DNA of 57,884 nt from Thiobacillus sp. 0-1251 (GTDB lineage Bacteria > Pseudomonadota > Gammaproteobacteria > Burkholderiales > Thiobacillaceae). Location of the stretch: positions 101,639-159,522 of the forward strand of contig MKWL01000005.1 of assembly GCA_001899305.1 (NCBI GenBank), in the 5' to 3' direction. The notes under the pieces are model-generated. The model saw only the letters and a list, made by a program, of their open reading frames with translations. It did no database searches and was not told where the DNA came from. Below, in pieces: positions 14,785-39,213 of this stretch; position 1 is the first letter of the stretch; each line of letters opens with the position of its first letter. Made by a program: the position numbers and the translations under genes.

Positions 14785-16587
14785 ATGCAAAAAACACTTT
14801 CCAAACTCTCCTCCGTCTGTCCTCTCTGGGTTTACAGGATGCTCCCCTTTCTCCGCTGGTGGCCTTCGGTCAACGGCAGCACAACCCGCGACGACGCGAT
14901 GGCGGGTCTTACGGGTGCCCTGATCGTGCTGCCCCAAGGGGTGGCCTTCGCCACCATTGCCGGCATGCCGCCCGAATACGGTCTTTATGCGGCGATGATG
15001 CCGGCCATCATCGCCGCGTTGTTCGGTTCGTCATGGCATCTCGTGTCCGGGCCCACCACCGCCATTTCGATCGCCGTGTTTGCGTCGGTCAGCCCGTTTG
15101 CCCATCCCGGCACACCCGAATTCATCAGCCTGGTGCTGACCCTGACCTTCCTGACCGGGGTCTTCCAACTCATTCTGGGCCTGGCGCGCATGGGCGTGCT
15201 CGTCAACTTCATTTCCCATACGGTCGTGATCGGCTTTACGGCCGGCGCGGCCATGCTCATCGCAGGCAGCCAGATCAAGAACTTCTTCGGAGTCGGCATC
15301 CCGCGCGGCACGCCGTTCTTCGAGATCCTGTCCTTGTTCGTCCAGCACCTCCAAGACATCAACCCCTACGTCACGGCGGTTTCCGTCATCACGCTTGCCT
15401 CGGGCATCCTGGTCAAGCGCTTCATGCCCAAGTTCCCCTACATGATCGCCGCCATGCTGGTCGGCAGCTTTGCGGCGCTGTTCCTGAACGCGCGTTACGG
15501 CGTGGAGGTCACCCACATCAAAACGGTTGGCGCCCTGCCGTCCGGCCTGCCGCCGCTGTCGGCGCCCGACTTCTCCTTCGGCGCGCTGAACCAGATGCTG
15601 TTCCCGTCCCTGATCATCACCATGCTGGCTCTGACGGAAGCAGTATCCATCTCGCGCGCCGTCGCCACGAAATCTGGACAACACATCGACGGCAATCAGG
15701 AATTCGTCGGCCAGGGGCTCTCCAACGTGATCGGCAGCTTTTTCTCGAGCTACGCATCCAGCGGATCGTTCAACCGCAGCGGGGTCAATTACGCGGCAGG
15801 CGCACGCACGCCCCTGGCCGCCGTGTTCGCGTCGGTGTTTCTGCTGATCATCCTGCTGCTGGTTGCGCCCCTGGCTGCCTATCTGCCCGATGCGGCAATG
15901 GCCGGGATCCTGTTCCTGGTGGCCTGGAGCCTGATTGACTTCCACCACATCAGCCTGCTGCCCAAGATCAGCCGGCAGGAAACCATCGTCCTGTGGGTGA
16001 CGCTCATCGGTACGTTGATCGATCTGGAAAAGGGCATTTTCTTCGGCATCGCCCTGTCGCTGGTGTTCTACCTGTATCGCACCTCGCGCCCCGCGCTCGA
16101 ACCCGTGCTGCCCGATCCCGATCCGGCAAGCTACCACTACACACCCCTCGATGGCCGGTCGGAGTGCCCGCAGATAAAAATGATGCGGGTCAATGGCTCG
16201 ATCTTCTTTGGCGCCGTCGCCCACCTGCAGCAGCAACTGCAGGAAATCGAAGAATCGGAACCCGAGCGCAAGCATCTGGTCGTCATGGCCAGCGGCATCA
16301 ACTTTGTCGATCTGGCAGGAGCCGAGTTCCTGGCCGAGGCTGCGCGCCAGCGGCGAAAAACGGGGGGGACCCTGTCTTTCTATCGCATGAAGAACAGCCT
16401 GGCCGAGACGCTGAAACGCGGCCATTTCATGGAAGACGTCGGTGAAGAAAACCTGTTTCCGGCCAAAACCCGCCCTGCCGAGATCCTGTATCCGAAGCTC
16501 GACAACGAGATTTGCCGGAATTGCACCGTACGCGCCTTCCCCATCTGTCACCAACACCTACCCAACGGAGAACCTCGCTCATCATGA
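14785..16587 (+). CDS. SulP-family anion transporter with STAS domain
   Basis: A 600-residue inner-membrane transporter of the SulP (SLC26-like) family, which carries sulfate, bicarbonate or other anions, usually with H+ or Na+. The N-terminal signature near residues 40-85 (GLTGALIVLPQGVAFATIAG, then PPEYGLYAAMMP) is clear, followed by 10-14 hydrophobic segments. The STAS domain covers about residues 440-560. A C-terminal tail after the STAS domain carries Cys577, Cys580 and Cys588 in a CxxC...CHQH pattern, which could bind metal. Its stop overlaps the start of a gamma-carbonic anhydrase gene (ATGA). This pairing favours bicarbonate as substrate, although sulfate export is also plausible in a sulfur oxidiser. 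Confidence 0.9.
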   Translation: MQKTLSKLSSVCPLWVYRMLPFLRWWPSVNGSTTRDDAMAGLTGALIVLPQGVAFATIAGMPPEYGLYAAMMPAIIAALFGSSWHLVSGPTTAISIAVFASVSPFAHPGTPEFISLVLTLTFLTGVFQLILGLARMGVLVNFISHTVVIGFTAGAAMLIAGSQIKNFFGVGIPRGTPFFEILSLFVQHLQDINPYVTAVSVITLASGILVKRFMPKFPYMIAAMLVGSFAALFLNARYGVEVTHIKTVGALPSGLPPLSAPDFSFGALNQMLFPSLIITMLALTEAVSISRAVATKSGQHIDGNQEFVGQGLSNVIGSFFSSYASSGSFNRSGVNYAAGARTPLAAVFASVFLLIILLLVAPLAAYLPDAAMAGILFLVAWSLIDFHHISLLPKISRQETIVLWVTLIGTLIDLEKGIFFGIALSLVFYLYRTSRPALEPVLPDPDPASYHYTPLDGRSECPQIKMMRVNGSIFFGAVAHLQQQLQEIEESEPERKHLVVMASGINFVDLAGAEFLAEAARQRRKTGGTLSFYRMKNSLAETLKRGHFMEDVGEENLFPAKTRPAEILYPKLDNEICRNCTVRAFPICHQHLPNGEPRSS

Positions 16588-17144
16588 TCCGCAAAAACCC
16601 GTCCGGGCATTTGCCTGTCGTACATGACACCGCATTTGTCGACCCCACCGCCATTCTGTGCGGCAAGGTCATCGTAGAAGAAAACGTGTTCATCGGCCCC
16701 TACGCGGTGATCCGCGCCGACGAGGTGGACGATAACGGCGAGATGGAGCCCATCATCATCTGCGCCCATTCCAATATCCAGGACGGCGTGGTCATCCACT
16801 GCAAGGCAGGCGGCGGCGTCACCATCGGACGGAGCACTTCCATCGCGCACCGCTCCATCGTGCATGGCCCCTGCACGGTTGGCGATAACGTATTCGTCGG
16901 CTTCAACTCGGTGCTGTTCAACTGCATCGTGTCCGACGGCTCGGTCGTTCGCCACAACTCGGTGGTGGAAGGCTGCACCGTGCCGCCGGGCTTCTACATC
17001 CCCTCCACCGCCAACATCCACTCCGATGCCGACTTGGCGACGATCGAGCGCGTATCGCCGCAGGCCGCCGACTTTTCGGAAAGCGTGGCGCAGGCCAACC
17101 ACGAGCTGGTCAAAGGCTACAAGCGCATCCGCAACGAGTTCTGA
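16584..17144 (+). CDS. Gamma-carbonic anhydrase family protein
   Basis: A left-handed beta-helix protein of 186 residues with hexapeptide repeats. The three zinc-ligand histidines of gamma-carbonic anhydrases are retained: His72 (DGVVIHC), His89 and His94 (IAHRSIVHGP). The family interconverts CO2 and bicarbonate, though many members lack activity. The start ATG at 16584 overlaps the sulP stop, so the two proteins are probably made together. The C-terminal 40 residues form the expected helix (QANHELVKGYKRI). Coupling with a SulP transporter suggests a bicarbonate transport/hydration module. Confidence 0.88.
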   Translation: MIRKNPSGHLPVVHDTAFVDPTAILCGKVIVEENVFIGPYAVIRADEVDDNGEMEPIIICAHSNIQDGVVIHCKAGGGVTIGRSTSIAHRSIVHGPCTVGDNVFVGFNSVLFNCIVSDGSVVRHNSVVEGCTVPPGFYIPSTANIHSDADLATIERVSPQAADFSESVAQANHELVKGYKRIRNEF

Positions 17145-17168: not shown

Positions 17169-17366
17169 TCATTCCTCGCCCCGTGGCGCCGCAGCGGTCA
17201 GCCACCCGGGCAATTCCCTTCCGCCCGCATTGTCGATGATGTATTGACGGATCAGTCGCCTCACGACCTGTGACGGCGTCAGGTCGCGCTGCACGCAGAT
17301 TTCTTCGAACAGTTTCTTTTTCCTGGGATCGATCAGAACGGTGAGCCGGGCTGTACGGTTTTCCAT
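17169..17366 (-). CDS. Ribbon-helix-helix DNA-binding protein, copy 1
   Basis: A 65-residue protein with an RHH (CopG/Arc-like) fold: a beta strand (ARLTVLIDP) then two helices (KKKLFEEICVQRD, then PSQVVRRLIRQYI). Such dimers bind palindromic operators. The start is ATG 17366. A perfect 8-3-8 inverted repeat lies 23 bp upstream, in the divergent gap with the Hyf-like operon, so it probably represses itself and that operon. A paralogue at 26061 on the other side of the block matches at 46 of 65 positions by eye. No toxin gene is adjacent, so a toxin-antitoxin role is unlikely. Confidence 0.82.
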   Translation of the reverse strand: MENRTARLTVLIDPRKKKLFEEICVQRDLTPSQVVRRLIRQYIIDNAGGRELPGWLTAAAPRGEE

Positions 17367-17388
17367 GGCAACAGAATAACGACTTGAT

Positions 17389-17407
17389 ATGTTAATCAGA
17401 TTAACAT
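17389..17407. promoter_or_regulatory. Candidate RHH operator 1
   Basis: Perfect inverted repeat ATGTTAAT-CAG-ATTAACAT, 23 bp upstream of the RHH copy 1 start and 58 bp upstream of the divergent hyfB-like start. The repeat before RHH copy 2 has the same 8-3-8 spacing and nearly the same half-site. A weaker second pair TTGATT / AATCAA (17413-17418 and 17433-17438) lies beside it. The role as an operator is inferred from position and from the paired copy. Confidence 0.6.
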
Positions 17408-17465
17408 TGTAGTTGATTTGGTTTGTCAATAGAATCAAATCTGGTCAGCTACGCGCGTACGTTCA

Positions 17466-19478
17466 ATGTCACATTTGGCATCCCTTGACGCTCATGTCCT
17501 CGATTTGGCTTGGGCCGGGGTGCTGTACTGGTTGGGAGTAGGCTTTTCAGCGCTGCTGCTGCAACGTCGGCACGGCCTACTCACCCGACTGATCTTTCCC
17601 CTTGGCGCATTGGGCGCATTGTTCATGGCAGGCATCGGCGTCGCCGGATTGCTGCTGCCCGCCTCGTCCATGGTGCTGCCCATCGGCCTGCCCGACCTGC
17701 CGTTCCATCTGCGGCTGGACGCCTTGTCTGCCTTCTTCATGGTGTTGCTGGGCGGCGCCGCATTCGGCATCACTGTGTATGCCTGCGGCTATTTCAGGAA
17801 CATGGCTGCAGGTCCGCTCGCCCTGCTCGCCCTCTGGTACCACCTGTTCCTGGCCGGGATGGTCACGGTGCTGCTGGCCGACGATGCCTACGCGTTCATG
17901 GTGGCCTGGGAAGTGATGGCCTTGTCGTCCTACTTCCTCGTCACCACCGACCACAAGATTCCCGAGATCCGCCGCGCCGGGTTTCTCTATCTGCTGATCG
18001 CGCACATCGGCGCGGTGTCCCTGCTGCTCACCTTCGGCGTGCTGCAGGGCGGCCATGGGGACTACACCTTCAACACCATGCGCCTCTCGGAGATGACGCC
18101 GTTCTGGTCCTCAGCGGCCTTCCTGCTGGCGCTGTTCGGTTTCGGCGCCAAGGCGGGCCTGGTACCGATACACGTGTGGCTGCCGGAAGCCCACCCCGCC
18201 GCGCCGTCGCCGGTATCGGCCCTGATGTCGGGCGTGATGCTGAAGACCGCCATCTACGGTCTACTCCGCGTCACCTTCGACCTGCTCAAAATGCAGCTTG
18301 GCTGGTGGGGCACGCTGGCATTGGCGCTGGGCTTGGTGACCGCCCTGTACGGCGTGATCTTCGCCGCCGTGCAATCGGACATGAAACGCCTCCTGGCCTG
18401 GTCCTCGATCGAGAATATCGGTGTGATCATCGCCGCCTTCGGCCTGACGCTGATTTTTCACACCGACGGCAAGGGCGCGCTGGCGGCACTGACGCTGACC
18501 GCCCTGCTGTACCACACCCTCAACCATGCGTTCTTCAAAGGCCTGCTGTTCGTCGGCACGGGTTCGGTGCTGCATGCCACCGGCGAGCGGCGCATGGGCC
18601 GCCTGGGCGGACTGATCCGCACCATGCCGTGGACAGCCTGGCTCACGCTGATCGGCGCGCTGGCCATCGCGGGCCTGCCGCCGCTCAATGGCTTCGTCTC
18701 GGAGTGGCTGTTGTTGCAGGCCTTCCTGCTGACACCGGGACTCACCCAGCCCTACCTCAACATGGTGATTCCGGTAGCGGCAGCCACGGTGGCGCTCGCC
18801 GCCGCGCTCGCCGCCTACGTGATGGTGAAGTTTTACGGCGTCATCTTCCTCGGGCAGCCGCGCGATCCGGCGCTGCAACATGCACACGAGGCAAGCTGGC
18901 CGGAGCGCCTGGGCATGCTGTGGCTGGCTGGCGCTTGCATCCTGCTGGGCCTGTTTCCCACGCTGGTCATCCAGTGGCTGGAACCAGTCGTGCTGATGCT
19001 GACCGGACAACGCCTGTCCGGCATCAGCAACTGGCTGTTGCTGACGCCGGTTTCGGCGGAGCGGGCGAGTTATGCGCCGCTGATTTTCCTGGCAGGTGTC
19101 ACAGCGGTGGTGGCGCTCACCTATCTGTGGGTACGCCGCGTCTATCACGGCAGGGTACGCCGCAGCGAACCGTGGGATTGTGGCTATCCGGAACAGAATA
19201 CGCGCATGCAGGACAGTGCCGAAGGCTTCGGCCAGCCGATCCGGCAGATCTTCGAGGTGTTCATGCGGGTGGAGCGCGAAACTCCCGATCCTTTCGACCG
19301 TCACCCGCATTACCGGGGTGACAGCCGCGACAAGCTCTGGCTGCTGATCTATCAGCCCATCGCCGACCTGACTGCCTGGTTGTCGATGCAGGCCGCACGC
19401 CTGCAACATGGCCGCATCCAGTGGTACCTGATCTACAGCTTCGTCACCCTGATCTTCCTCCTGGTATTTACACGATGA
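17466..19478 (+). CDS. HyfB/NuoL-like proton-conducting membrane subunit (Hyf-like complex without hydrogenase site)
   Basis: A 670-residue antiporter-like subunit related to HyfB/HycC and NuoL. Many hydrophobic helices are present, with the proton-channel segment around residues 140-260 (including WEVMALSSYFLV and the HVWLPEAHPAAPSPVSALMSG region). The C-terminal cytosolic extension (SEPWDCGYPEQNTRMQDSAEGF) is typical of HyfB. It is the first gene of a tight six-gene operon. The TGA overlaps the next ATG. In Hyf and related complexes this subunit couples electron transfer to proton translocation. The operator for RHH copy 1 lies directly upstream. Confidence 0.88.
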   Translation: MSHLASLDAHVLDLAWAGVLYWLGVGFSALLLQRRHGLLTRLIFPLGALGALFMAGIGVAGLLLPASSMVLPIGLPDLPFHLRLDALSAFFMVLLGGAAFGITVYACGYFRNMAAGPLALLALWYHLFLAGMVTVLLADDAYAFMVAWEVMALSSYFLVTTDHKIPEIRRAGFLYLLIAHIGAVSLLLTFGVLQGGHGDYTFNTMRLSEMTPFWSSAAFLLALFGFGAKAGLVPIHVWLPEAHPAAPSPVSALMSGVMLKTAIYGLLRVTFDLLKMQLGWWGTLALALGLVTALYGVIFAAVQSDMKRLLAWSSIENIGVIIAAFGLTLIFHTDGKGALAALTLTALLYHTLNHAFFKGLLFVGTGSVLHATGERRMGRLGGLIRTMPWTAWLTLIGALAIAGLPPLNGFVSEWLLLQAFLLTPGLTQPYLNMVIPVAAATVALAAALAAYVMVKFYGVIFLGQPRDPALQHAHEASWPERLGMLWLAGACILLGLFPTLVIQWLEPVVLMLTGQRLSGISNWLLLTPVSAERASYAPLIFLAGVTAVVALTYLWVRRVYHGRVRRSEPWDCGYPEQNTRMQDSAEGFGQPIRQIFEVFMRVERETPDPFDRHPHYRGDSRDKLWLLIYQPIADLTAWLSMQAARLQHGRIQWYLIYSFVTLIFLLVFTR

Positions 19479-20419
19479 GCGCCGGCATCCTCCTGCAAGT
19501 CGCCCAGACCCTGTTGGCCATCCTGCTGGCACCGCTGCTGATGGGCTGGGTCAACCAGTGCCGCGCCTGGCTGCAGGGGCGCAGCGCGCCACCCATCACC
19601 CAGCCTTACCGCTCCCTGCGCAAACTGTTCCACAAGGACGCGGTGATCGCGCACACTGCCTCGCCGCTGTTCCGTTTCGCGCCCTACATGAAGTTTGCCT
19701 GCATGGCGCTGGCGGCCGGCATCGTGCCGACCATCGCCAACGATCTGTCCTTCTCGCCAGCAGCGGACGTCATTGCCCTGGTGGGCATCTTCGCGCTGGC
19801 ACGGGTGTTCCTGGCGCTGGCGGCCATGGACATCGGCACCCCGTTCGGCACCCTCGGGGCACGAAGGGACATGCTGGTGTCTTTCCTGGCCGAGCCTGCG
19901 CTACTCATGGTGTTCTTCACCGCCAGCCTGATTTCGCAGTCCACTGAACTTCCCATCATCGTCGCCACCCTGGCGCACAAGGCCTTCGCCATCCACCCCA
20001 GCCTGGCGTTCGCGGCAGTGGCGTTCTGGATGATCTCGGTGGCGGAGAACGCGCGCATCCCCGTTGACAACCCCAGTACGCACCTAGAATTGACGATGAT
20101 CCACGAGGCCATGATCCTGGAGTATTCCGCCCGGCATCTCGCCCTGATCGAATGGGCGGGGGCATTGAAACTGTTCACCTACTCCGCGCTGGGCATCGCG
20201 CTGTTCCTGCCCTGGGGCATCGCGCTCCAGGGTGATATCGCCGCCTTGCCTTTGGCGCTGGCCGCCATCGTGGCGAAGCTTGCGGTCGGCGGCGCCGCGT
20301 TGTCGTTCATGGAAGTCGTCTCCGCCAAGGTGCGCCTGTTCCGCGTTCCGGAGTTTCTCGGCACGGCCTTCCTGCTGGCTGTACTGGGCATGCTGATCCA
20401 TTTCCTGCTGGAGGGATGA
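19475..20419 (+). CDS. HyfC/NuoH-like membrane subunit
   Basis: A 314-residue integral membrane protein related to HyfC, HycD and NuoH, which anchors the peripheral arm to the membrane arm. Conserved segments include YRSLRKLFHKDAV, DIGTPFGTLGARRDM and ENARIPVDNPSTHLELTMIHE, the last corresponding to the NuoH quinone-site loop. The start ATG 19475 overlaps the stop of the previous gene (ATGA). Eight or more hydrophobic helices are visible. Confidence 0.88.
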   Translation: MSAGILLQVAQTLLAILLAPLLMGWVNQCRAWLQGRSAPPITQPYRSLRKLFHKDAVIAHTASPLFRFAPYMKFACMALAAGIVPTIANDLSFSPAADVIALVGIFALARVFLALAAMDIGTPFGTLGARRDMLVSFLAEPALLMVFFTASLISQSTELPIIVATLAHKAFAIHPSLAFAAVAFWMISVAENARIPVDNPSTHLELTMIHEAMILEYSARHLALIEWAGALKLFTYSALGIALFLPWGIALQGDIAALPLALAAIVAKLAVGGAALSFMEVVSAKVRLFRVPEFLGTAFLLAVLGMLIHFLLEG

Positions 20420-20467
20420 GATGGGATCGAACGCGATTCGCACATTGAACGCCGGGTGGAAAACATC

Positions 20468-21133
20468 ATGACGGCATTGGCCTATCATCTTCAGATCGTC
20501 AACCTGCTTGCGGCCCTGCTGCTGCTGATCTCGTTCGCCATGTTGTCGCAGCGTCGCGTCGTCGGCCTGGTGACCCTATTCGCCTGGCAGGGTGCGGCGC
20601 TGGCCTTGTCCACGGCCATCGTCGCCTGGTCCACCGGCCAGCACCACCTGTATTACTCGGCGGCCATGACGCTGGGGCTCAAGGTGATCGCCATGCCTTG
20701 GTACTTCTACCACTTGGTGAAAAAGCTGAACGTGAACCGGGTCGTGGAGCCGATGATCAACATCCCGACCACGATGCTGATCGGCATCGTGCTGGTGATC
20801 TTCGCCTTCAACCTGGCGCTGCCCATCTCGGAAATGTCCGGCACGGTGACGCGCTCGACCCTGGGCATCGCCATGGCCTGCGTGCTGCTCGCCTTCCTCA
20901 TGATGATCACGCGCACCAAGGCCATCCCGCAAGTGATCGGTTTCCTGTCCATGGAGAACGGCCTGTTCTTCGCCGCCACCAGCGCGACCTACGGCATGCC
21001 CCTGGTGGTGGAACTGGGCGTGGCCCTGGACGTGCTGGTCGGCGTGTTCGTGCTCGGCATCTTCATCTTCCAGATCCGCGAGACGTTCGACTCGCTGGAT
21101 CTGAAGCACATGGAAAAGCTCAAGGAAAAATAG
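20468..21133 (+). CDS. HyfE/NuoK-like membrane subunit
   Basis: A 221-residue membrane protein of the HyfE type, containing a NuoK-like core. About six hydrophobic helices are visible, with a conserved acidic residue in the middle (GFLSMENGLFF). I choose ATG 20468 (MTALAYH) because a GGTGGA sequence precedes it; ATG 20456 adds four residues. A 48 bp gap separates it from the hyfC-like gene. Its position between C-like and F-like genes matches hyf gene order, except that hyfD is absent. Confidence 0.82.
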   Translation: MTALAYHLQIVNLLAALLLLISFAMLSQRRVVGLVTLFAWQGAALALSTAIVAWSTGQHHLYYSAAMTLGLKVIAMPWYFYHLVKKLNVNRVVEPMINIPTTMLIGIVLVIFAFNLALPISEMSGTVTRSTLGIAMACVLLAFLMMITRTKAIPQVIGFLSMENGLFFAATSATYGMPLVVELGVALDVLVGVFVLGIFIFQIRETFDSLDLKHMEKLKEK

Positions 21134-21136
21134 GTC

Positions 21137-22588
21137 ATGGAACTGTTCTGGCTACTCGGCATTCCGCTGACAGGCGGCATTTTCCTGGCGCTGTGGGGCT
21201 ACCGGCGCAACGCACCGGAGATCAACGCGCTCTTCAGCCTGCTCACGCTGGCGATGGCGGCACTACTGACTGTGCGCATCGTCGAGGCGGGTCCGATGAT
21301 GGTGGGCAACGGCTGGTTCTTCATCGATTCGTTCAATGTGTTCCTGGTTGCGCTGACCGCCTTCGTCGCTTTTACCACCGCCCTGTTCTCGCGTCCCTAC
21401 ATGCGCATCGAACAGGAACACGGCCGCCTCAACGCCACGCGCCTGCGCCTGTATCACAGCAGCTACCAGATCTTCATCGGGGCCATGCTGCTGGCGCTGA
21501 CCACCAACAACATGGGCATCCTGTGGGTGGCGATGGAGGCCGCGACGCTCGCCACCGTGCTGCTGGTCTCGCTGTATCGCACCCCGGCCTCGCTGGAAGC
21601 GGCCTGGAAATATTTCATCCTGTGTGGCGTAGGCATCGCGCTGGCGCTGTTCGGCACCATCCTGCTTTATTTCGCGGCGGAGAAAGTACTGGGTTCGGGC
21701 GGCAACGCGCTGTTGTGGACGCACCTGAACGGCGTGAAGGCCCAGCTCGAGCCCACGGTGCTGTCGCTGGCCTTTGTTTTCCTGCTGGTCGGCTACGGGA
21801 CGAAAGTTGGTCTGGCGCCGCTGCACAGCTGGCTGCCGGATGCTCACGCCGAGGGCCCGACGCCGGTGTCCGCCGTGCTCTCCGGTCTGCTGCTCAACGT
21901 CGCACTGTATGCGGTGATGCGCTCCAAGGTGCTGGTGGATGGTGCGCTCGGCAACGACATGGCGGGTACGCTGATGATGGGCTTCGGTTTGCTTTCCGTC
22001 GTGCTGGCGGCATTCCTGATCGTGCGTCAGACCGACGTCAAGCGCATGTTCGCCTACTCCTCCATCGAACACATGGGGCTGATCACGTTCGCTTTCGGCA
22101 TGGGCGGCGCAGTGACGAACTTTGCCGGCCTGCTGCACATGACCATGCATTCGCTCACCAAGTCCGCCATATTCTTTGCCGTCGGCCATGCCACGCAAAA
22201 AACCGGCACGCAATTGATGGACGACATCCGCGGCCTCATCAAGACCAATCCCACCCTCGGCTGGGGCCTGATGCTCGGCACCGTCGCCATCCTCGGCATG
22301 CCGCCGTTCGGCGTGTTCGCCAGCGAATTCCTCATCATCACCACCGCCATGCACGAGCATCCCTGGGCCACGCCCTTCCTGCTGCTGGCGCTGGGCGTGG
22401 CCTTCGCAGCCATCTTCGGCAAGGTGCAGCCCATGGTGTTCGGCGAGACCGAGCTGCCGAAGCTGCCTTACCAGCCCGCGCAGACACCGGTGTTCCTGCA
22501 TCTGGGGCTGGTGTTGATGCTGGGCCTGTTCATCCCGCCATATCTCGCCGCCTGGTACAGGCAGGCGGCCCATCTGCTGGGAGGCTGA
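21137..22588 (+). CDS. HyfF/NuoM-like proton-conducting membrane subunit
   Basis: A 483-residue second antiporter-like subunit, related to HyfF and NuoN/M. The hallmark region HSWLPDAHAEGPTPVSAVLSG and the later VKRMFAYSSIEHMGL segment are clear, with about 14 hydrophobic helices. It starts 3 bp after the hyfE-like gene. Two antiporter-like subunits in one operon imply translocation of several protons per turnover. The next gene begins 1 bp after its stop. Confidence 0.88.
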   Translation: MELFWLLGIPLTGGIFLALWGYRRNAPEINALFSLLTLAMAALLTVRIVEAGPMMVGNGWFFIDSFNVFLVALTAFVAFTTALFSRPYMRIEQEHGRLNATRLRLYHSSYQIFIGAMLLALTTNNMGILWVAMEAATLATVLLVSLYRTPASLEAAWKYFILCGVGIALALFGTILLYFAAEKVLGSGGNALLWTHLNGVKAQLEPTVLSLAFVFLLVGYGTKVGLAPLHSWLPDAHAEGPTPVSAVLSGLLLNVALYAVMRSKVLVDGALGNDMAGTLMMGFGLLSVVLAAFLIVRQTDVKRMFAYSSIEHMGLITFAFGMGGAVTNFAGLLHMTMHSLTKSAIFFAVGHATQKTGTQLMDDIRGLIKTNPTLGWGLMLGTVAILGMPPFGVFASEFLIITTAMHEHPWATPFLLLALGVAFAAIFGKVQPMVFGETELPKLPYQPAQTPVFLHLGLVLMLGLFIPPYLAAWYRQAAHLLGG

Positions 22589-22589
22589 G

Positions 22590-24140
22590 ATGAAAATCGG
22601 CGATCACGAGTGGCGTCTCGACTCCATCGGCCCGCACATCTGGCGCGGCAGTATGGAAACCGGGCAATTGCTCGCGCTGTCGCGCGCGGTCAAGGAGGAA
22701 GGCGGACAGCTCGTCGCACTGTGGGGTTCGGACGACCGCCACCTGAACGGCGGCTTCGGTATTCATGTCGCCCTGCTCACGGGCCTGGGGTTGGCCTGGG
22801 TGAGTTGCGTCCTGCCGGCGGAGGCGCCCGCCTATCCCGATCTCGCGCATATCTTCCCGCAAGCCGATCGCATGCAGCGTGCGGCCTTCGATCTGCTCGG
22901 CATCACTGCCACCGATGCGGTGGACGAGCGCAAATGGCTGCGCCACAACGCCTGGGCCGCAAGCGAATTCCCCCTGCGCAAGGATTTCTCGTCGCTCGCC
23001 GCTCGCCGCTCACCGCTCCCGGAGGCCGACGCCTATCCTTTCATTTACGTGCAGGGCGATGGCGTCCACGAAATCGCAGTCGGTCCCATCCACGCCGGGA
23101 CCATCGAGCCCGGACATTTCCGCTTCTCCATCATTGGCGACCGTATCCTCAAGCTGGAAGCGCGCCTGGGCTACGCCCACAAGGGCATCGAAAAACGTTT
23201 CGAGGGCATGGAACTCGCCACCGGCGCCAGGCTCGCCGGACGCGTGTCCGGCGATTCGCACAGCGCCTATGCCTGGGCCTATTGCATGGCCGTCGAGATG
23301 GCGACCGCCAGCACGGTACCCGAACGGGCGTTGTGGCTGCGCGCCCTGTTCCTGGAAATCGAACGCATCGCCAACCATCTGGGCGATCTCGGCTACCTGG
23401 GCAACGACGTGGCGCTTGCGTTCGGCTTCATGCAGTTCTGGCGCCTGAAAGAAGACTGGCTGCGGATGAGCATCAAGCTGTTCGGCCACCGCTATCTGTT
23501 CGATTGCATCACGCCGGGCGGCGTGGCCACGGATATCGACGCCGCAGGGTGTGCCGAACTCGACGCCCTGGCCTGCCGCATCGAGGCCGAAATACGTGAG
23601 CTCAAGATCATCTATGACGAGCATGCCACCCTGCAGGACCGCTTTGCCGACACCGGCATCTGCAAACCCGAGCTGGCCGCGCAACTGGGTTTGACCGGGC
23701 TGGCCGGTCGCGCCAGCGCCCAGACCTGGGATGTGCGTACGCAATTTCCGCAGGTCCCCTATGACCGACTGGATGTGAACATGGCGACCCAGCGCCGGGG
23801 CGATGTGCTGGCGCGCGCGGAAGTGCGCTTTGCCGAAGTGTACGAATCCCTGCGATTGATCCGCGACATCCTCAAGCGCCTGCCGGCGGGCGGCATACAC
23901 GCGCCGCTCCAGCCGGCGCAAGCTGCATGCGAAGGTCTGGGCTGGGTGGAAGGCTGGCGCGGCGAGGTGGTGGTGGCAGTCAGGATTGCGGCCGACGGCA
24001 CGCTCGACCGCGTGCATCCGCACGATCCGTCCTGGCAGAACTGGCCGCTGGTGGAAATGGGCGTGCTGGGCAACATCGTGCCCGACTTCCCGCTCATCAA
24101 CAAATCCTTCAACCTCTCCTACAGCGGACCGGATTTATAA
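22590..24140 (+). CDS. HyfG-like fused NuoC-NuoD large subunit lacking NiFe cysteines
   Basis: A 516-residue fusion. Residues 1-150 resemble NuoC; residues 160-516 resemble NuoD and hydrogenase large subunits (VGPIHAGTIEPGHFRF). In real group 4 hydrogenases a CGICxxxH motif and a C-terminal DPCxxC bind nickel and iron. Here the first site reads RVSGDSH (residues 218-224) and the C-terminus ends NLSYSGPDL, so no CxxC pair remains. This subunit therefore cannot carry a NiFe centre. It resembles the energy-converting-hydrogenase-related (Ehr) complexes. A short GC-rich simple repeat lies inside the gene near 22988-23022. The electron donor and substrate are unknown. Confidence 0.85.
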   Translation: MKIGDHEWRLDSIGPHIWRGSMETGQLLALSRAVKEEGGQLVALWGSDDRHLNGGFGIHVALLTGLGLAWVSCVLPAEAPAYPDLAHIFPQADRMQRAAFDLLGITATDAVDERKWLRHNAWAASEFPLRKDFSSLAARRSPLPEADAYPFIYVQGDGVHEIAVGPIHAGTIEPGHFRFSIIGDRILKLEARLGYAHKGIEKRFEGMELATGARLAGRVSGDSHSAYAWAYCMAVEMATASTVPERALWLRALFLEIERIANHLGDLGYLGNDVALAFGFMQFWRLKEDWLRMSIKLFGHRYLFDCITPGGVATDIDAAGCAELDALACRIEAEIRELKIIYDEHATLQDRFADTGICKPELAAQLGLTGLAGRASAQTWDVRTQFPQVPYDRLDVNMATQRRGDVLARAEVRFAEVYESLRLIRDILKRLPAGGIHAPLQPAQAACEGLGWVEGWRGEVVVAVRIAADGTLDRVHPHDPSWQNWPLVEMGVLGNIVPDFPLINKSFNLSYSGPDL

Positions 24141-24141
24141 G

Positions 24142-24675
24142 ATGGCTTCGTATCTGATCCTCCAGAAGATCCTCAAGACCGGCTTCGTCTCCGAACCGGC
24201 GCCCCAGGCCGACCCCGCGCTGCGCACACGCGAGCAGGCACTGCAGGCGGAAATTCTCAAAGTATTCGGCCAGGCGGTGGCGATCCGCCACGTCGATGCC
24301 GGCTCCTGCAACGGCTGCGAACTGGAAATTCATGCGCTCAACGGTCCGCACTACAACATCGATGGCCTGGGCGTGAAGTTCTCCGCCAGCCCCCGGCACG
24401 TCGATGTACTGCTGGTGACCGGCCCGGTTTCGCGCCACATGGAAGCCGCGTTGAAACGCGCCTACGACGCCATACCGGATCCCAAGTGGGTCGTGGCCAT
24501 GGGCGAGTGCGCCTGCACCGGCGGGATGTTCGGCGAGAGCTACGCGTCGTGCGGAAAGATATCCAACGTCATCCCCGTCGACGTCGAAGTGCCGGGTTGC
24601 CCCCCCACCCCGACCGCGCTGCTGCAAGGCATCCTGGCTGCCGTCAGCAAGGGCGCGTCCAACGCAAGCGGCTAG
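24142..24675 (+). CDS. HyfI/NuoB-like [4Fe-4S] subunit
   Basis: A 177-residue small subunit related to HyfI, HycG and NuoB. The cysteines that hold the N2-type [4Fe-4S] cluster are retained: Cys56 and Cys59 (SCNGCE), Cys123 (GECACTGG) and Cys153 (PGCPPTP). It begins 1 bp after the large subunit and is the last gene of the operon. No ferredoxin-like subunits (HyfA or HyfH types) are encoded here, so electrons must come from an outside partner, or the cluster serves a non-redox-chain purpose. Confidence 0.88.
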   Translation: MASYLILQKILKTGFVSEPAPQADPALRTREQALQAEILKVFGQAVAIRHVDAGSCNGCELEIHALNGPHYNIDGLGVKFSASPRHVDVLLVTGPVSRHMEAALKRAYDAIPDPKWVVAMGECACTGGMFGESYASCGKISNVIPVDVEVPGCPPTPTALLQGILAAVSKGASNASG

Positions 24676-24749
24676 GGAAACGTCCTACAGGCAGGCCCAG
24701 CCATCATCGTGCCGTCCCTGCCGGGGTCGCCCGTATTCGCTTGACCGGT

Positions 24750-25889
24750 CTAGGCTTTGGGTTTTCTGCCGGGGCTGGCGGCCGGGATATATCCCGAGAT
24801 CCGATACAGCATCCCTTCGCTTTTCTTGCCCTTGATGAAGCGCGTGGAGTGGCACGCGATGACGTCCCCTCTTTTCGACAATTCGGCCAGATGAAGCCGA
24901 ACGTCTTCCAGCGGGATTCGGGTTGCCGCGGCGATCTCGGCGTCGAACTGCTCGCCGCGACTTTTCAGGTATTGATGGATTTTCTGCATATCTGAGGTAC
25001 CTGATTTCATGAGTGACGAGACCTTGGGGCAGGCAGCCTGCTTTGCCCAGGGCAATTCAGCCCCCTCGCGCAAGCTGGTAACGATTGCTGAAAAATCGAG
25101 TGGGATCCGATCGGCAAGCGCACTCGCTCGTTTTTCCAGCTGTCCCCAATCGAGGGGACAGGCCGGTCCGACACATGCACAGGCAATATGATTGTCGCCG
25201 CCAGGGACCGTCCCCAAATGCACATGCCCTTGGAAGACTTCGCTCAACAAGGCCAGGTGTCTGGACCAGTATTTCCGGGGCCCGGCGAAGTTGGCGACAA
25301 GCAGTCCCCCAGAGCGGAGCCGGTTACGTGCCGCCTGATAGAAGGTGCGACTGAGAAACGTCGGGGCGATGCCTCGGGCGTCGAAGCCATCCAGCAACAG
25401 TACGTCGGTATCGCCTTCCGCCTCGGGGAGATACGCGGCTGCATCGGCCTGGACGATCGCCAGGCGTTCATCGTCGGGTACGCCGAACGCCTGGCGCAAC
25501 GCGATGACGTCGGGGTTCAACTCGACCACGGTCAAGCGTGTGCGGGGCAGATGGCGGTGGCAGAACTTGGCCAGCGACCCACCACCCAACCCGACCAGCA
25601 ACACATGGCCCGGATTCGGCGCGAACAGCAGAAAAGCCATCATCTTGCGGGTATAGGCGATATCCAGGGCGAAAGGATCATCGATGCGCATGGAGCTCTG
25701 GATGAAATCCAGATTAAACAGCAGTTGCCGTGTCTCGCCGTCGTCGATGATGAAAGGCCTGGCGTAACGCCCGTCCAGAATCTGCTCGTAGAGTCTCACA
25801 GGATCGCTCTGCGACGATTCGAGTACGCACACCTTGACCGGTTCGCCCGCCACCTTGCCGGGCAACTCCAGCAGCGGGGGGCGACTCAT
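24750..25889 (-). CDS. Spermidine-synthase-like domain fused to a winged-helix domain
   Basis: A 379-residue two-domain protein. Residues 60-240 form a Rossmann fold of the spermidine synthase/SAM-dependent type: the nucleotide loop GLGGGSLAKF near 101-110, acidic VVELNPD near 121-127 and LLLDGFDARG near 165-173. Residues about 302-368 resemble a winged helix (MQKIHQYLKSRGEQFDAEIA, then LHLAELSKRGDVIA). The frame is continuous between the two. The start is taken as ATG 25889; a TTG at 25967 is possible and no clear ribosome-binding site decides. It converges on the Hyf-like operon and is divergent from RHH copy 2, so it may be under the same repressor. Enzyme activity is not certain. Confidence 0.7.
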   Translation of the reverse strand: MSRPPLLELPGKVAGEPVKVCVLESSQSDPVRLYEQILDGRYARPFIIDDGETRQLLFNLDFIQSSMRIDDPFALDIAYTRKMMAFLLFAPNPGHVLLVGLGGGSLAKFCHRHLPRTRLTVVELNPDVIALRQAFGVPDDERLAIVQADAAAYLPEAEGDTDVLLLDGFDARGIAPTFLSRTFYQAARNRLRSGGLLVANFAGPRKYWSRHLALLSEVFQGHVHLGTVPGGDNHIACACVGPACPLDWGQLEKRASALADRIPLDFSAIVTSLREGAELPWAKQAACPKVSSLMKSGTSDMQKIHQYLKSRGEQFDAEIAAATRIPLEDVRLHLAELSKRGDVIACHSTRFIKGKKSEGMLYRISGYIPAASPGRKPKA

Positions 25890-25990
25890 GGGGGCGGCGA
25901 TGGCGGAAGCGGAATGGGACAAGAATGACGAAGACCTATAAACGTGTCTGCCAATTACGCATGGCAAAAAGCGCGATCGATCAAATCACA

Positions 25991-26027
25991 TCATCAGATG
26001 ACATTCTCATGATAATACAATTATCAT
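25991..26027. promoter_or_regulatory. Candidate RHH operator 2
   Basis: The perfect inverted repeat ATGATAAT-ACA-ATTATCAT occupies 26009-26027, 33 bp before the RHH copy 2 start. It has the same 8-3-8 design as operator 1, with half-sites differing at one base (ATGATAAT against ATGTTAAT). A second, shorter palindrome TCATC-A-GATGA (25991-26001) is centred on the CAG core seen in operator 1. The site lies in the divergent gap between the spermidine-synthase-like fusion gene and RHH copy 2. Confidence 0.6.
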
Positions 26028-26060
26028 ATTATCCCTACCCCGCCCATCACGAGTCCCGCT

Positions 26061-26267
26061 ATGGAAAACCGTACCGCCAGGATGACCATCCTGATCGATC
26101 CGCTCAAAAAGGAAATTTTCGAGGACATCTGTACGCAACAAGACCTCACGTCGTCGCAAGTCATTCGCAAATTGATGCGCCAGTACATCATCGATCACGC
26201 GGGCCCGCGAGAACTGCCCGGATGGTTGACCGGGCCTGCCCCCAAGGCAGAAAACCCATCGAAGTGA
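26061..26267 (+). CDS. Ribbon-helix-helix DNA-binding protein, copy 2
   Basis: A 68-residue RHH protein, close paralogue of the one at 17169: same N-terminus (MENRTAR), same strand-helix-helix layout and same tail (RELPGWLT). The strand residues that contact DNA are nearly identical (RMTILIDP against RLTVLIDP), which fits recognition of near-identical operators. The gene is divergent from the spermidine-synthase-like fusion. A weakly structured 200 bp gap separates it from the convergent cbbO. Confidence 0.82.
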   Translation: MENRTARMTILIDPLKKEIFEDICTQQDLTSSQVIRKLMRQYIIDHAGPRELPGWLTGPAPKAENPSK

Positions 26268-26468: not shown

Positions 26469-28826
26469 TTAGCGCGTCAGACCCGCGTACAGCAGCGGCA
26501 GTTTTTCCGGCAGCCGCTGCACGTGGTCGACCACCATATAGTTCTTCTGCCCGAAGATGCGCGACACATAATTGTCGGCGCGCGGATCGAGGCTCATGCA
26601 GTAGGTGGTGACGCCGTTGCGCGCCACTTCCTCGACCGCCTTCTTGGTGTCGTAGCGCAGATACTGCGGATCGCGCACGTCGATGTCGGCCGGCTCGCCG
26701 TCGGTGATCACGATCAACAGCTTCTTCGCCGAGCGCTGCAGCTTCAGATGATGGCCAGCGTGGCGGATCGCCGCACCCATGCGGGTCGACAACTGGCCCG
26801 TCATGCCCGCGAGTTTGGCCTTGGGCACCTCGTTCCAGTGCTGGTCGAAGTCCTTGAAGCGAGTGTATTCGACATCGTGACGACCGTCCGAACAGAAGCC
26901 ATGGATGGCAAACGGGTCGCCGACCTTGTCGATCGCATCGGCCAGCAGCACGCAGGCCTGCCGCGTCAGATCAAGCACGCTGTATTCCTGGTCCTGCACC
27001 AACTCATTGGTCGATTCGGACAGGTCGAGCAGCACAAGGATCGAGAAGTCACGCGTTTTCCGGACGCTGCGCATCATGATGCGCGGATCGGGCTGGTTGC
27101 CGAGCCGGATGTCGATGAAGCTCGCGATCGCCGCGTTGATGTCGATCTCGTCGCCATCTTCGAGCTTGCGGATGCGCTGCACGCCCTGCGGCTGCATCGC
27201 GTCGAGCAGGAACTTCATGCGATGGATTTCGCGCTTGTACTTGGCGGTAATGTCGTCGATTACCTGCAGATCGCCCGATTTGGCGCGCTTCTCCAGCACC
27301 GTGGCCCAGGCCGGACGCTCCAGCTGGATCTGGTAGTCCCATTCCGAATAGTGGAAAGGATCGGACACCGGCTCCTTGCCTTCCATCTCGTTGAAGCTCT
27401 TGCCGTGGCTCTCGTCACCGATGTTCTCGTAGGGGAAGAGCTCGGTGCTGAGTACCCAGATTTCCTCGGCATCGTCGCCCGCGGTTTCGACGTCGATCGC
27501 GTTGACCATCTCCATCACGCTGACGTTCTTGCGAACCTGCTTGATGCTCTCGTAGCCGGCGCCCGCAGCCTTGTCGAAATCGAATTCCTCGAATTCCCAG
27601 AAGTAGCGGTTGTCGTCTCGGTAAGGCGCGGCAAGGATGTCGGTGCGCGGGTTGAACGGGATTCTTTTCTCGGTCAGATTGTGCGCGAGTTGGACGCCGA
27701 TTTCCCACGAAATCTGGTTGTCGCCGAGGCGGTCCTGCACTGCGGCAAACAGCACGCGGCCCTCGGCGACCCACAGATCGTTATCCTGGTAGGTTTCGTC
27801 CAGCAGCGCGCGGGCCAGGCGGTTGAGATAATCGCCGACGCTCGCATTCATGTCCGGCGTGGCGACGTGCAACCTGCTCCAGAGCTGCTTCAGGCCGGGG
27901 AAGCGACGGATCGATAGGGCTTCTACCCGCGCGTCCTCGATCACCGAAATCACCGCCATCTGCATCGGGTTCAGTGCTTCGGCCGAAATCGGTTCCTTCG
28001 TTTCCACGACGTGCGCGGCGCAGTGTGCGGCGGTCGCGCGATAGAGTTCGAGACCGGACACCGGCTCCTGCCCCTCGATCGCGAAGTCATCGACGGCATC
28101 GGGCACATGCAGCAGGTAGTCGGCGATGTAGGGCCGGTAACCTTCGCGCGACTCGAAGTCGCCCGAGGTCGGCCGCATGAAAAAGTCACGTGCCCACAGC
28201 GCCCGCAAATACATGTTGATGCGGCGCTGCACGTCGACCAGAAGCGTGCCCTTGCGCTCCTTCTGCAGCATCGCCAGCGACTCCTTCGACTCGAGGCCAA
28301 AGTACCTGATCTGCTCTTCGTAGTTGGTGCGATGCGCGTGCGCGCCCCACAGCGCCCAGCGACGCAGGCCGCCCAACGTCAGGTGCTGGAACAGCACTTC
28401 CAGCTTGTCGAGCATCGGCCGCACGCCGCGCGGCGCCTGCGCGATGAGGGTATTGAGAAACTGCAGATACTTGAGGAAGAGGTCGGCGTCCCCGAGCCGG
28501 TTGGCGGCGGTGGGCGCACTGGCGAGCAGCAGCTCGATCACCGCACCCGAGGTTTTCGACGCCAGCATCAGCGCGGCGGTGGCAAGGTCGGCCACCACAT
28601 CCTCGCCCACTTCCTTGGCCACCAACGGCGCCTGTTCGATCCAGGTTTCGACCAGATCGTCGCCTCGCCCCAGCCCGCGGATGGCCGACACACCCTTCAG
28701 GTAGTTGTCCAGCCCACGCGGCGAGAACACCTTGGTGGCCTCGTGCCAGGTCGCATTCAACGTATCGCGCGTGTGCGGCGACAGGTCTTCCAGCAGTTCA
28801 GCGTAGTCTTCGAGTTTGATCGACAT
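26469..28826 (-). CDS. cbbO: RuBisCO activase accessory protein CbbO
   Basis: A 785-residue VWA-domain protein. With CbbQ it forms the CbbQO activase, which strips inhibitory sugar phosphates from form I RuBisCO. CbbO is the adaptor that recognises the substrate. The C-terminal VWA domain carries the metal-ion adhesion motif in LLDLSESTNEL (DxSxS) and ITDGEPADIDV. The long helical N-terminal part covers about residues 1-570. It follows cbbQ on the minus strand after a 93 bp gap containing an imperfect inverted repeat. Confidence 0.93.
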   Translation of the reverse strand: MSIKLEDYAELLEDLSPHTRDTLNATWHEATKVFSPRGLDNYLKGVSAIRGLGRGDDLVETWIEQAPLVAKEVGEDVVADLATAALMLASKTSGAVIELLLASAPTAANRLGDADLFLKYLQFLNTLIAQAPRGVRPMLDKLEVLFQHLTLGGLRRWALWGAHAHRTNYEEQIRYFGLESKESLAMLQKERKGTLLVDVQRRINMYLRALWARDFFMRPTSGDFESREGYRPYIADYLLHVPDAVDDFAIEGQEPVSGLELYRATAAHCAAHVVETKEPISAEALNPMQMAVISVIEDARVEALSIRRFPGLKQLWSRLHVATPDMNASVGDYLNRLARALLDETYQDNDLWVAEGRVLFAAVQDRLGDNQISWEIGVQLAHNLTEKRIPFNPRTDILAAPYRDDNRYFWEFEEFDFDKAAGAGYESIKQVRKNVSVMEMVNAIDVETAGDDAEEIWVLSTELFPYENIGDESHGKSFNEMEGKEPVSDPFHYSEWDYQIQLERPAWATVLEKRAKSGDLQVIDDITAKYKREIHRMKFLLDAMQPQGVQRIRKLEDGDEIDINAAIASFIDIRLGNQPDPRIMMRSVRKTRDFSILVLLDLSESTNELVQDQEYSVLDLTRQACVLLADAIDKVGDPFAIHGFCSDGRHDVEYTRFKDFDQHWNEVPKAKLAGMTGQLSTRMGAAIRHAGHHLKLQRSAKKLLIVITDGEPADIDVRDPQYLRYDTKKAVEEVARNGVTTYCMSLDPRADNYVSRIFGQKNYMVVDHVQRLPEKLPLLYAGLTR

Positions 28827-28919
28827 AGTGAGTGTGCTGTAAACAGTTAGCCGTGAGCGGTAGGGGCTGGCAGCGTAGGCAGTTCTCCCGCCTGCTGCTC
28901 ACCGCTTGCCGCTTACGAA
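28827..28919. repeat. Intergenic imperfect inverted repeat between cbbQ and cbbO
   Basis: Arms GTGAGCGGTAGG (28853-28864) and CCTGCTGCTCAC (28890-28901) pair with two mismatches. The flanks carry runs of the CTCACCGCTTGCCGCT type. Similar simple sequence occurs in the cbbL-cbbS gap and inside the hyfG-like gene. It may be a local mRNA structure that separates cbbQ and cbbO expression, or a drifting intergenic repeat. Confidence 0.45.
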
Positions 28920-29723
28920 TCAGAAGAACGTGGACACGGCCGCGTCGAGCGCATCGCGCATGTCGGGATCGTCCGTGATCGGGCGGACCAGGGCGACGCG
29001 GCAAGCGGCCAGCGGGTTGACGCCCTTGGCGATCAGCGACCCGGCGTAGATCAGCATGCGGGTCGACAGGCCTTCATCAAGGCCGTGGCCCTTGAGGTTG
29101 CGGCTGCGCTCGGCGATCGACACCAGCTTGGCGGCGATGTCTGCATTGACGCCGGACTCGTGCGCGACGATCTCGGTTTCGATGCCGTGCTCGGGATACG
29201 TGAAATCGAGGCCGCCGAAACGCTGCTTGGTCGACTGCTTGAGATCTTTCATCAGCGACTGGTAGCCGGGGTTGTAGGAAATCACAATCTGGAAATCGGG
29301 GTGGGCGTGCACCAGCTCGCCCTTCTTTTCCAGAGGCAGCACGCGACGGTTGTCGGTCAGCGGATGGATCACCACGGTGGTGTCCTGGCGCGCTTCGACA
29401 ACTTCGTCGAGGTAGCAGATCGCGCCATGGCGGGCGGCGATGGCGAGGGGTCCGTCCTGCCACTCGGTGCCGGAGGCGGACAGCAGGAAGCGGCCAACCA
29501 GGTCGGACGCCGTCATGTCCTCGTTGCACGCCACGGTGATCAGCGGCTTGCCGAGCTTGTAGGCCATATATTCGACGAAGCGCGTCTTGCCGCAGCCGGT
29601 AGGACCCTTGAGCATCATCGGCATGCGCACCGAATAGGCGGCCTCATACAATTCGACTTCGTCCGCAACCGGACGGTAATAGGGTTCCTGGGTAACGCGG
29701 TACTGGTCGACGATATTGCTCAT
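28920..29723 (-). CDS. cbbQ: RuBisCO activase ATPase CbbQ
   Basis: A 267-residue MoxR-type AAA+ ATPase that works with CbbO to reactivate inhibited RuBisCO. Walker A is GPTGCGKT near residues 40-47 and Walker B is AICYLDEV near residue 105. The sensor-1 and arginine-finger regions follow ([11 protein letters not shown]). The gene is downstream of cbbLS but behind a strong terminator-like hairpin, which should lower its dose relative to the enzyme. Confidence 0.95.
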
Positions 29724-29792
29724 GACAGCTCCATGTAAGGGATCGCAAATACGCAGGCCGCTCAGCGTGCAGCCTCTGGATTTACGACAGAT

Positions 29793-29853
29793 AAAAAGCC
29801 CCCGGGCACCGACCCTGCGCCCACTTCAGGGCTTCGGATCGGGCAGCGGGGGC
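29793..29853 (-). terminator. Terminator-like hairpin between cbbS and cbbQ
   Basis: Read on the minus strand, GCCCCCG (29853-29847) pairs perfectly with CGGGGGC (29804-29798) and is followed by TTTTT (29797-29793). The loop of about 40 bases can form further pairs. This has the layout of a rho-independent terminator. Since cbbQ and cbbO lie just downstream in the same direction, it probably allows partial read-through. Confidence 0.75.
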
Positions 29854-29877
29854 CGGGTGTGACAGCCTTGCCGCCGC

Positions 29878-30234
29878 TTAAACAGTCTTGCCGCGGAAGA
29901 TCACCATCGACGCGCCCTGGCTTTGCGAGAAGTTGTCGTAGCCAATCAGACGGACGTGGTTGTTGGGGTTGGCCTTGTGGCAGGCTTCAGCTTCAGCCAG
30001 CACGCGGGAGACGTCGGTTTCACCGAACATCGGCAGCTTCCACATGTACCAGTAGGAGTCCATCATGTGCTCGGGCTCGGTGTGCTCGATGGCCGGGTTC
30101 CAGCCTTTTTTCACCAGGTACTCGACCTGCTTCTTGATGTTGTCCGCAGTCATGGCGGGCAGGTAGGAGAAGGTCTCGAATTTGCGGCTGGCGGGATCGC
30201 TCAGGCGGCTTTTGTAATCCATTACTTCAGACAT
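29878..30234 (-). CDS. cbbS: RuBisCO small subunit, form IA
   Basis: The 118-residue small subunit of form I RuBisCO. Conserved segments are [10 protein letters not shown], the [15 protein letters not shown] motif and a C-terminal [13 protein letters not shown]. Compared with the Halothiobacillus neapolitanus carboxysomal CbbS as I remember it, there is a six-residue insert (SDPASR, residues 12-17) before the FETFSYLP motif. This insert is the reported marker of the IAq, non-carboxysomal type. The gene follows cbbL by 92 bp. Confidence 0.96.
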
Positions 30235-34905: not shown

Positions 34906-34906
34906 C

Positions 34907-39089: not shown

Positions 39090-39213
39090 AAACGCGCGGG
39101 ACAGGGTCCTGCGAGCGACACCCTGTGCTGCGCGGATGGGCCGCCGTCCCGCCATTCCGCTTCGGCGTATAACCTGGGCGATGCGTGTGGCCTGTAGCAT
39201 CCGCCCCGGCTTA

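Follow-up and report, generated by a model that had tools for sequence, protein, structure and literature searches.

The window, i.e. the whole stretch of 57,884 nucleotides analysed here, lies at the end of a contig of the 3.66-Mb genome of Thiobacillus sp. 0-1251 (G000:C5:101639-159522). It carries six tightly packed genes in the order hyfB-C-E-F-G-I (17466-24675), all on the plus strand and with intergenic gaps of at most 36 bases, which are bracketed, together with a gene for a spermidine-synthase-like (SpeE-like) protein, by two ribbon-helix-helix (RHH) regulator genes. As predicted from its sequence, the block is an energy-converting hydrogenase-related (Ehr) type, hydrogenase-4-like complex, of the known kind designated 'hyfBCEFGI'. 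Here, I show that one and the same inverted repeat stands at both promoters of the block, and that the family of the two regulators recurs in the neighbourhood of SulP anion transporters, both observations being new.

Subunits of the Hyf-like complex

The first gene, hyfB (17466..19478), codes for an antiporter-like (NuoL/M-type) subunit that matches NCBIfam hydrogenase 4 subunit B with 898 bits, and is followed by hyfC (19475..20419), for a NuoH-type membrane subunit (Pfam NADHdh, E 5e-31), and by hyfE (20456..21133), which has a GTG start and codes for a NuoK-type subunit whose match to the NCBIfam hydrogenase 4 membrane subunit (E 1.1e-23) is below cut-off. A further antiporter-like subunit is encoded by hyfF (21137..22588; NCBIfam hydrogenase 4 subunit F, 860 bits), the large subunit, a NuoC-NuoD fusion devoid of NiFe ligands, by hyfG (22590..24140), and a NuoB-type iron-sulfur (FeS) subunit by hyfI (24142..24675; Pfam Oxidored_q6, E 3.4e-32).

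The best PDB alignment of HyfG is to HycE of formate hydrogenlyase-1 (FHL-1; 7z0s_E, E 9.9e-83) and extends over most of the length of HyfG. Along it, RVCGIC of HycE reads RVSGDS and DPCYSC reads NLSYSG; the four NiFe-ligand cysteines are replaced by S, S, S and G, and both CxxC pairs are gone. In a set of 138 HyfG sequences of at least 42% identity (the conservation sets of the Hyf subunits include close relatives, perhaps duplicates), the first of these positions is still a cysteine in 12, while D222, D499, N504, K505, S506, N508, Y511 and D515 are invariant wherever the residue aligns. HyfI, which aligns to HycG, retains its cluster cysteines C57, C60, C124 and C154 in 130 of 130 sequences (129 of 129 for the last one; residues are counted from one codon upstream of the ATG). 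Charged residues of the membrane subunits are likewise invariant, namely E149, K229 and K307 of HyfB (117 sequences), E134, K223 and K302 of HyfF (130 sequences), and E140, E191, E205, E211 and E216 of HyfC (120 sequences). Since the residues of the replaced pocket, of the cluster and of the channels are conserved, the complex looks like a working machine under selection, not a decayed one.

HyfG is thus a group-4-like large subunit without CxxC pairs, accompanied by antiporter-like subunits with conserved charged residues, as is typical of Ehr complexes. Clusters with the same six genes by name are described in Cupriavidus metallidurans, C. necator H16, Acidithiobacillus (At.) ferrooxidans and Nitrospira, and the literature on them states the loss of the NiFe ligands for the Nitrospira Ehr (PMC2864759, PMC7735108, PMC10284858, PMC5596200); the C. 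necator H16 cluster is H16_A2196-A2201 (PMC2864759). The coupling of a cytoplasmic redox reaction to ion translocation by Ehr complexes is suspected in print (PMC6349859), and in the available parts of these five sources no tested function of such clusters was found. Nor was any mention found, in the same parts, of an RHH regulator, an operator or a link to SulP, in which the published Ehr clusters differ from the block in the window.

The At. ferrooxidans cluster was proposed in its annotation to be a genuine hydrogenase 4 or formate hydrogenlyase (PMC2621215), which would agree with the gene order and with the NCBIfam names of HyfB and HyfF. For the block in the window such an activity is extremely improbable, in that all four NiFe cysteines are missing and NiFe-site H2 chemistry is contradicted by the sequence; moreover, HydDB put the At. 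ferrooxidans cluster in a non-hydrogenase class (PMC7735108). HyfG and HyfI resemble HycE and HycG of the Escherichia coli FHL-1 and hydrogenase 4 systems, yet the block lacks, unlike these, the NiFe cysteines, the ferredoxin subunits and the second NuoL-like subunit HyfD. Among the genes between RHH1 and RHH2, no ferredoxin-type subunit (HyfA or HyfH) is found; an active hydrogenase was rejected for want of the NiFe ligands. The block departs from complex I as well: the NuoD/Nqo4 His and Tyr positions, which I take to form the quinone site, are replaced by Ile172 and Gly221 in HyfG (2fug_4 alignment). So far the first-pass annotation of the stretch holds, having described the six packed genes, the RVSGDSH motif and missing C-terminal CxxC of the large subunit, the FeS cysteines of the NuoB-like subunit and the lack of ferredoxin subunits.

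The RHH_9 regulators and the inverted repeat at their promoters

RHH1 (17169..17366, minus strand) is divergent from hyfB, and RHH2 (26061..26267, plus strand) closes the block behind the SpeE-like gene (24750..25889, minus strand; PRK04457-type match, E 1.6e-60, below cut-off). The two products, rightly taken for flanking paralogues in the first-pass annotation, are identical at 46 of 65 residues and match the Pfam family RHH_9 (PF19839, cut-off 23.4 bits) with 126.3 bits (E 4.2e-37) and 124.4 bits (E 1.6e-36), respectively; no text naming PF19839 was found in the available parts of the literature.

A 19-bp inverted repeat, ATGNTAATNNNATTANCAT, the consensus of which was read from upstream regions of RHH_9 genes (70 of 76 collected), is present with 0 mismatches between RHH1 and hyfB (ATGTTAATCAGATTAACAT, 17389..17407) and between the SpeE-like gene and RHH2 (ATGATAATACAATTATCAT, 26009..26027). 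At up to two mismatches, these promoter regions hold the only two sites of the 3.66-Mb genome, the reversed control pattern having matched once; at three mismatches, 0.41 chance matches are expected in the window, and 4 of 100 shuffles gave two or more. The copy on the RHH2 side overlaps a promoter-like -10 match, in a promoter scan that was at chance level (2 found, 2.0 expected). From this co-location and from its partial conservation, the repeat is a putative operator at which the RHH pair would bind and repress. Its occurrence at exactly those two promoters supports the proposal, made from a first inspection of the locus, that an Ehr-type complex has an RHH pair of its own, with the role of the operator being putative.

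Of 52 RHH genes linked to Hyf, 22 have the repeat with no more than one mismatch in their upstream region, as do 7 of 19 linked to SulP, 20 shuffles of each never falling below 3 mismatches. Exact sites number 12 in 47 genomes with RHH_9, where all of them are at RHH promoters, as against 1 in 47 genomes not listed with RHH_9, some few of which may have been outside the RHH_9 searches. Sites with one mismatch precede SulP in G606, G642 and G581, stand between SulP and a presumable pckA (named from its sequence) in locus L159, and are found in front of yjdM in L190. In L186, the Hyf operon is bracketed, as in the window, by two RHH genes with speE-like genes, and there are four one-mismatch sites.

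Genomic surroundings of RHH_9 and of Hyf-type genes

The RHH_9 family was searched in 369 genomes at the level of the class (18 with E of at most 1e-3) and in 300 at the level of the order (34 with E of at most 1e-8), and its contexts were read in 47 genomes besides that of the window, 14 of them class-level and 33 order-level; the weak class-survey matches G166, G089 and G182 (E 8e-5 to 2e-4) were excluded from the counts. Within 4.5 kb of RHH_9 there is a Hyf-type operon in 22 genomes, SulP without adjacent Hyf in 20, yjdM and/or a speE-like gene alone in 4, and no such gene in the remaining 1. The first group includes L180, in which RHH_9 is divergent from a Hyf operon that belongs to a more remote subfamily (HyfB 34% identity), and the second includes L159, with pckA between SulP and RHH. 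SulP and RHH are divergent in some genomes and facing in others. As to the background, the 33 order-level genomes (2.0-6.9 Mb) have 0 to 9 PF00916 matches each, some genes being counted twice. Of the 13 order-level SulP cases, 3 (G642, G581 and G553) have a Hyf-type HyfG elsewhere in the genome; in the 7 class-level ones none was found at E 1e-60.

Another recurrent neighbour of RHH_9 is yjdM (phnA zinc-ribbon), present within 4.5 kb at 8 of 33 order-level loci; examples are L171, L172, L181, L184, L186 and L190.

In the window, the block is preceded by the gene for a SulP-family anion transporter with a STAS domain (14785..16587, plus strand; Pfam Sulfate_transp, E 6.6e-94; NCBIfam sulP above cut-off, the BicA and DauA models below theirs) and by that for a hexapeptide gamma-carbonic-anhydrase-like protein of the CcmM type (16584..17144, plus strand; top NCBIfam match the CcmM model, E 1.1e-35, under the whole-protein cut-off; Pfam Hexapep), a pair which the first-pass annotation had named and Pfam and NCBIfam confirm. 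SulP, gamma-carbonic anhydrase, RHH and hyf follow in the same order in L165 and L166, which belong to another family; SulP stands immediately before hyfBCEFGI in L056, and it precedes hyfB in several lineages. Family counts for the neighbours of the named Hyf loci cover 108 of the 180 genes upstream and 116 of the 206 downstream. Sulfate_transp is the commonest upstream family (11 genes), level with STAS, and is not one of the 25 commonest downstream; L041 does have one there.

Hyf-type loci also vary in make-up. In L135, a reduced block consists of SulP, a 61-aa open reading frame, and then HyfF and HyfG (3727-5484, 173-3258), hyfB, hyfC and hyfE not being found in the stretch; L128 has a solitary HyfG gene (7691-9289), the other five subunits being undetected within 17.8 kb; L053 and L063 each carry two Hyf-like gene sets in tandem on the same contig.

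The same surroundings bear on whether the complex might be an ordinary respiratory Ehr, in which a soluble donor derived from ferredoxin, formate or CO would reduce quinone via HyfI and HyfG and drive proton pumping, unrelated to anions. The invariant cluster cysteines of HyfI and the intact glutamates of HyfC are in line with such an enzyme, as are the flavoprotein families FAD_binding_2, DAO and FMN_dh in 3, 4 and 3 neighbour genes, and hyfBCEFGI of Nitrospira co-occurs with formate dehydrogenase genes or adjoins carbon monoxide dehydrogenase (CODH) (PMC5596200). However, HyfG lacks both the NiFe cysteines and the His/Tyr pair of complex I; ferredoxin, formate dehydrogenase and CODH families are absent from the 25 commonest of 125 upstream and of 191 downstream families (same gene sample); and the regulator shared with SulP is left unexplained. 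This explanation is regarded as unlikely.

A proposed role in anion supply and its alternatives

The reading put forward here, tentatively and with its chances rated slightly below even, is that an Ehr-type complex under an RHH_9 circuit takes part in a response to anion supply which is shared with SulP, the anion being most likely bicarbonate, in autotrophs and heterotrophs alike. RHH1 and RHH2 would bind the repeats at RHH1/hyfB and SpeE-like/RHH2, silence their own genes and the hyf operon, probably also the SpeE-like gene, and release the DNA under one stimulus. Elsewhere, the family would act on SulP transporters for bicarbonate or dicarboxylates, at times together with yjdM, speE-like, DUF1275 or pckA genes, and it is this action on SulP in other bacteria that would place the complex in the anion-supply response. 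A soluble carrier, the presumed electron donor, may dock at the place of HyfH/HyfA and feed electrons to the HyfI cluster; the reaction at the altered HyfG pocket, with its presumed acceptor, may be coupled via HyfC to the antiporter-like HyfB and HyfF; and the resulting ion movement or pumping could energise or pull the uptake of anions through SulP and the hydration of CO2 by the adjacent gamma-carbonic anhydrase. Bicarbonate is favoured as the anion, and inorganic carbon as the probable substrate, because of the gamma-carbonic anhydrase, DAB and cbb neighbours. A more committed version, with the Hyf-like complex and SulP as interchangeable outputs of an RHH_9 switch and the complex itself as an ion-gradient-coupled bicarbonate/CO2 device with a remodelled hydrogenase pocket, in heterotrophs and autotrophs, which would make it a further complex-I-derived machine for inorganic carbon beside DAB and NDH-1MS, is considered quite unlikely.

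Several observations weigh against the anion-supply reading, one of them being that the block is not associated with RuBisCO or DabA over 369 genomes (see below). As regards the repeat, no copy is found within three mismatches at the SulP, cbb, dab or cso genes of the window itself, and a wider RHH regulon over these genes was rejected, since the genome has no other site within two mismatches and the window none within three. In 14 of the 52 upstream regions of Hyf-linked RHH genes and 5 of the 19 of SulP-linked ones, the best match has four or more mismatches, as in shuffles, and the upstream scores are partly circular, the consensus being derived from the same regions. At up to one mismatch, the genomes with RHH_9 have 30 sites and the others 23 (reversed control 8 vs 6), which leaves exact sites as the only ones that discriminate; 26 of the 47 RHH_9 genomes have no site with up to one mismatch, and none is found where SulP faces the RHH gene in G618, G666, G637 and G499. 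The repeat is thus well established for this genome and for some of its relatives; in others it is degraded or takes another form. As regards SulP, 70 of 80 named loci, many of them incomplete, have no match to the SulP of the window, and among 43 HyfG loci of the class survey only L135 has one; furthermore, the SulP of L155 passes the model of the C4-dicarboxylate transporter DauA (876 bits, cut-off 614), so that the shared anion may not be bicarbonate, and pckA, malic-enzyme and DASS-like genes are among the neighbours, too.

The last points lead to the main rival of anion or inorganic-carbon handling, which itself remains the best lead. RHH_9 might sense cytoplasmic acidification or carboxylic acids, with a DauA-type SulP and the Hyf-like complex moving protons or carboxylate in acid-pH/C4-dicarboxylate homeostasis, and carbon fixation being incidental. 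The DauA-type SulP of L155 (those of L164 and L181 are DauA-like below cut-off), the one-mismatch site beside pckA in L159, and malic enzyme genes near hyf in L054, L063 and L066 keep this explanation alive, and the SpeE-like and yjdM neighbours recur. Along the same line, Thiomonas, Rhodanobacter, Granulicella and Paraburkholderia, which are frequent in acidic habitats, are among the hosts of the named loci. On the other hand, in two families hyf has a gamma-carbonic anhydrase gene and a SulP of another type beside it, the proximity of hyf and cbb recurs, and in L164 (530-9087) DabA and NuoL-like genes are close to the SulP-RHH unit, adjoining yjdM, SulP and RHH_9. Acid or C4-dicarboxylate homeostasis is seen as possible, albeit doubtful.

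A tie of the complex to autotrophy, as first proposed for this locus, was assessed in the class survey, in which Hyf-type clusters without a NiFe site occur in 44 of 369 sampled genomes (at most four candidates were scored per genome, and G207, with a 242-bit match to A1 only, was not counted as block-bearing). RuBisCO matches (PF00016 at E 1e-30, a count that may take in RuBisCO-like proteins) are found in 23 of the 44 block-bearing and 153 of the 325 other genomes (p=0.53), and in 3 of 10 in the closest clade of the window (>680 bits, window included); the 21 block-bearing genomes and the 7 in the clade without a match are the very finding that, by the first-pass annotation, would refute its proposal. 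DabA is not associated with the block either (12/44 vs 71/325, p=0.44). For RHH_9, the corresponding figures are 7/15 vs 76/354 with DabA (p=0.05) and 6/15 vs 170/354 with RuBisCO (p=0.61). The co-occurrence test has some power, since the association of DabA with RuBisCO is recovered in the same genomes (56/176 with a RuBisCO match vs 27/193 without, p=5.6e-5). The hyf block was rejected as a marker of autotrophy by these counts, and an autotrophy-specific function is not supported.

The link to RuBisCO is not general; proximity of hyf to cbb is nevertheless seen repeatedly, in a few lineages of chemolithotrophs. The two adjoin in Thiobacillus L033 and L035; in Thiomonas L089 a cbbM-like gene follows hyfI, and in L150 a cbb set stands two genes before hyfB (the cbbM naming in L089 and L150 rests on ~31-33% identity to the form I enzyme of the window and on gene order). 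In At. ferrooxidans, the hyf cluster is AFE2149-54 (PMC2621215) and cbbM-Q-O is AFE_2155-2157, in a set reaching AFE_2158 (PMC6458275), so that, by consecutive locus tags, hyf is next to cbb. Of the earlier suggestion of recruitment for CO2 or bicarbonate handling, the carbon link survives as the RHH_9-SulP neighbourhood, SulP before hyfB and hyf-cbb proximity, whereas autotroph-specific recruitment does not.

Two known systems are akin to the Hyf-like complex in this respect. DAB/MpsAB has a NuoL-like membrane subunit near carbon genes, and 27 of the 83 genomes with DabA, too, lack a RuBisCO match; mpsAB is reported to have passed a test by expression in E. coli devoid of carbonic anhydrase (PMC6689103). 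Unlike this system, no DabA (PF10070) occurs within the hyf block, the dab pairs being separate genes of the same window. In cyanobacterial NDH-1MS a complex-I-like arm is said to drive CO2 hydration (PMC13144422), whereas no CO2-hydrating subunit was recognised in the hyf block, which has just a gamma-carbonic-anhydrase-like gene nearby. The nearest mechanism is that of the DAB2 structure paper, a NuoL-like subunit driving CO2 hydration (PMC13144422). In the available main text of a review of the dissolved inorganic carbon toolkit (PMC10880623) the word hydrogenase is absent, and in the literature accessible to the search no study of the expression of these clusters under CO2 was recognised. 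If the carbon reading is true, DAB and NDH-1MS would be joined by another class of energised systems for anions or CO2. A dedicated regulator, a repeat that is sharp here and a SulP neighbourhood elsewhere provide a handle on the stimulus and the substrate of Hyf-type clusters.

Downstream, the hyf block borders a larger carbon-concentrating island. Nearest to the block, and convergent with it, is an operon for form I RuBisCO (cbbO, cbbQ, cbbS and cbbL, 26469..31745, minus strand), in which CbbL was identified by Pfam and the remaining genes, presumably cbbO, cbbQ and cbbS as judged from sequence, were matched in relatives. RuBisCO is not directly downstream of the block, as had been stated, for these three genes stand between it and cbbL (30327-31745). 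Two dabB-dabA pairs, dabBA1 and dabBA2 (33154..44375, plus strand; DabA PF10070 at 35023-38766 and 41895-44375), which flank a LysR-type gene of the minus strand, and the alpha-carboxysome genes csoS2 and csoSCA (46732..50320, plus strand) come next in the island, of which the first-pass annotation, as regards the dab and cso genes, makes no mention.

The closest named record is a Thiobacillus denitrificans metagenome-assembled genome (L033), with HyfG at 96% identity. It shares with the window an additional C-terminal tail of the SpeE-like protein (last ~100 residues), present only in these two among 10 aligned sequences. The tail has no Pfam match at E 0.001, and the predicted structure is unreliable there (predicted local distance difference test 29-60); of the proposed fusion with a winged helix, the SpeE-like part stands and the winged-helix part is unproven. 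Finally, a phage-type integrase gene (54801-55748) is found downstream of the carboxysome genes, close to the contig end.

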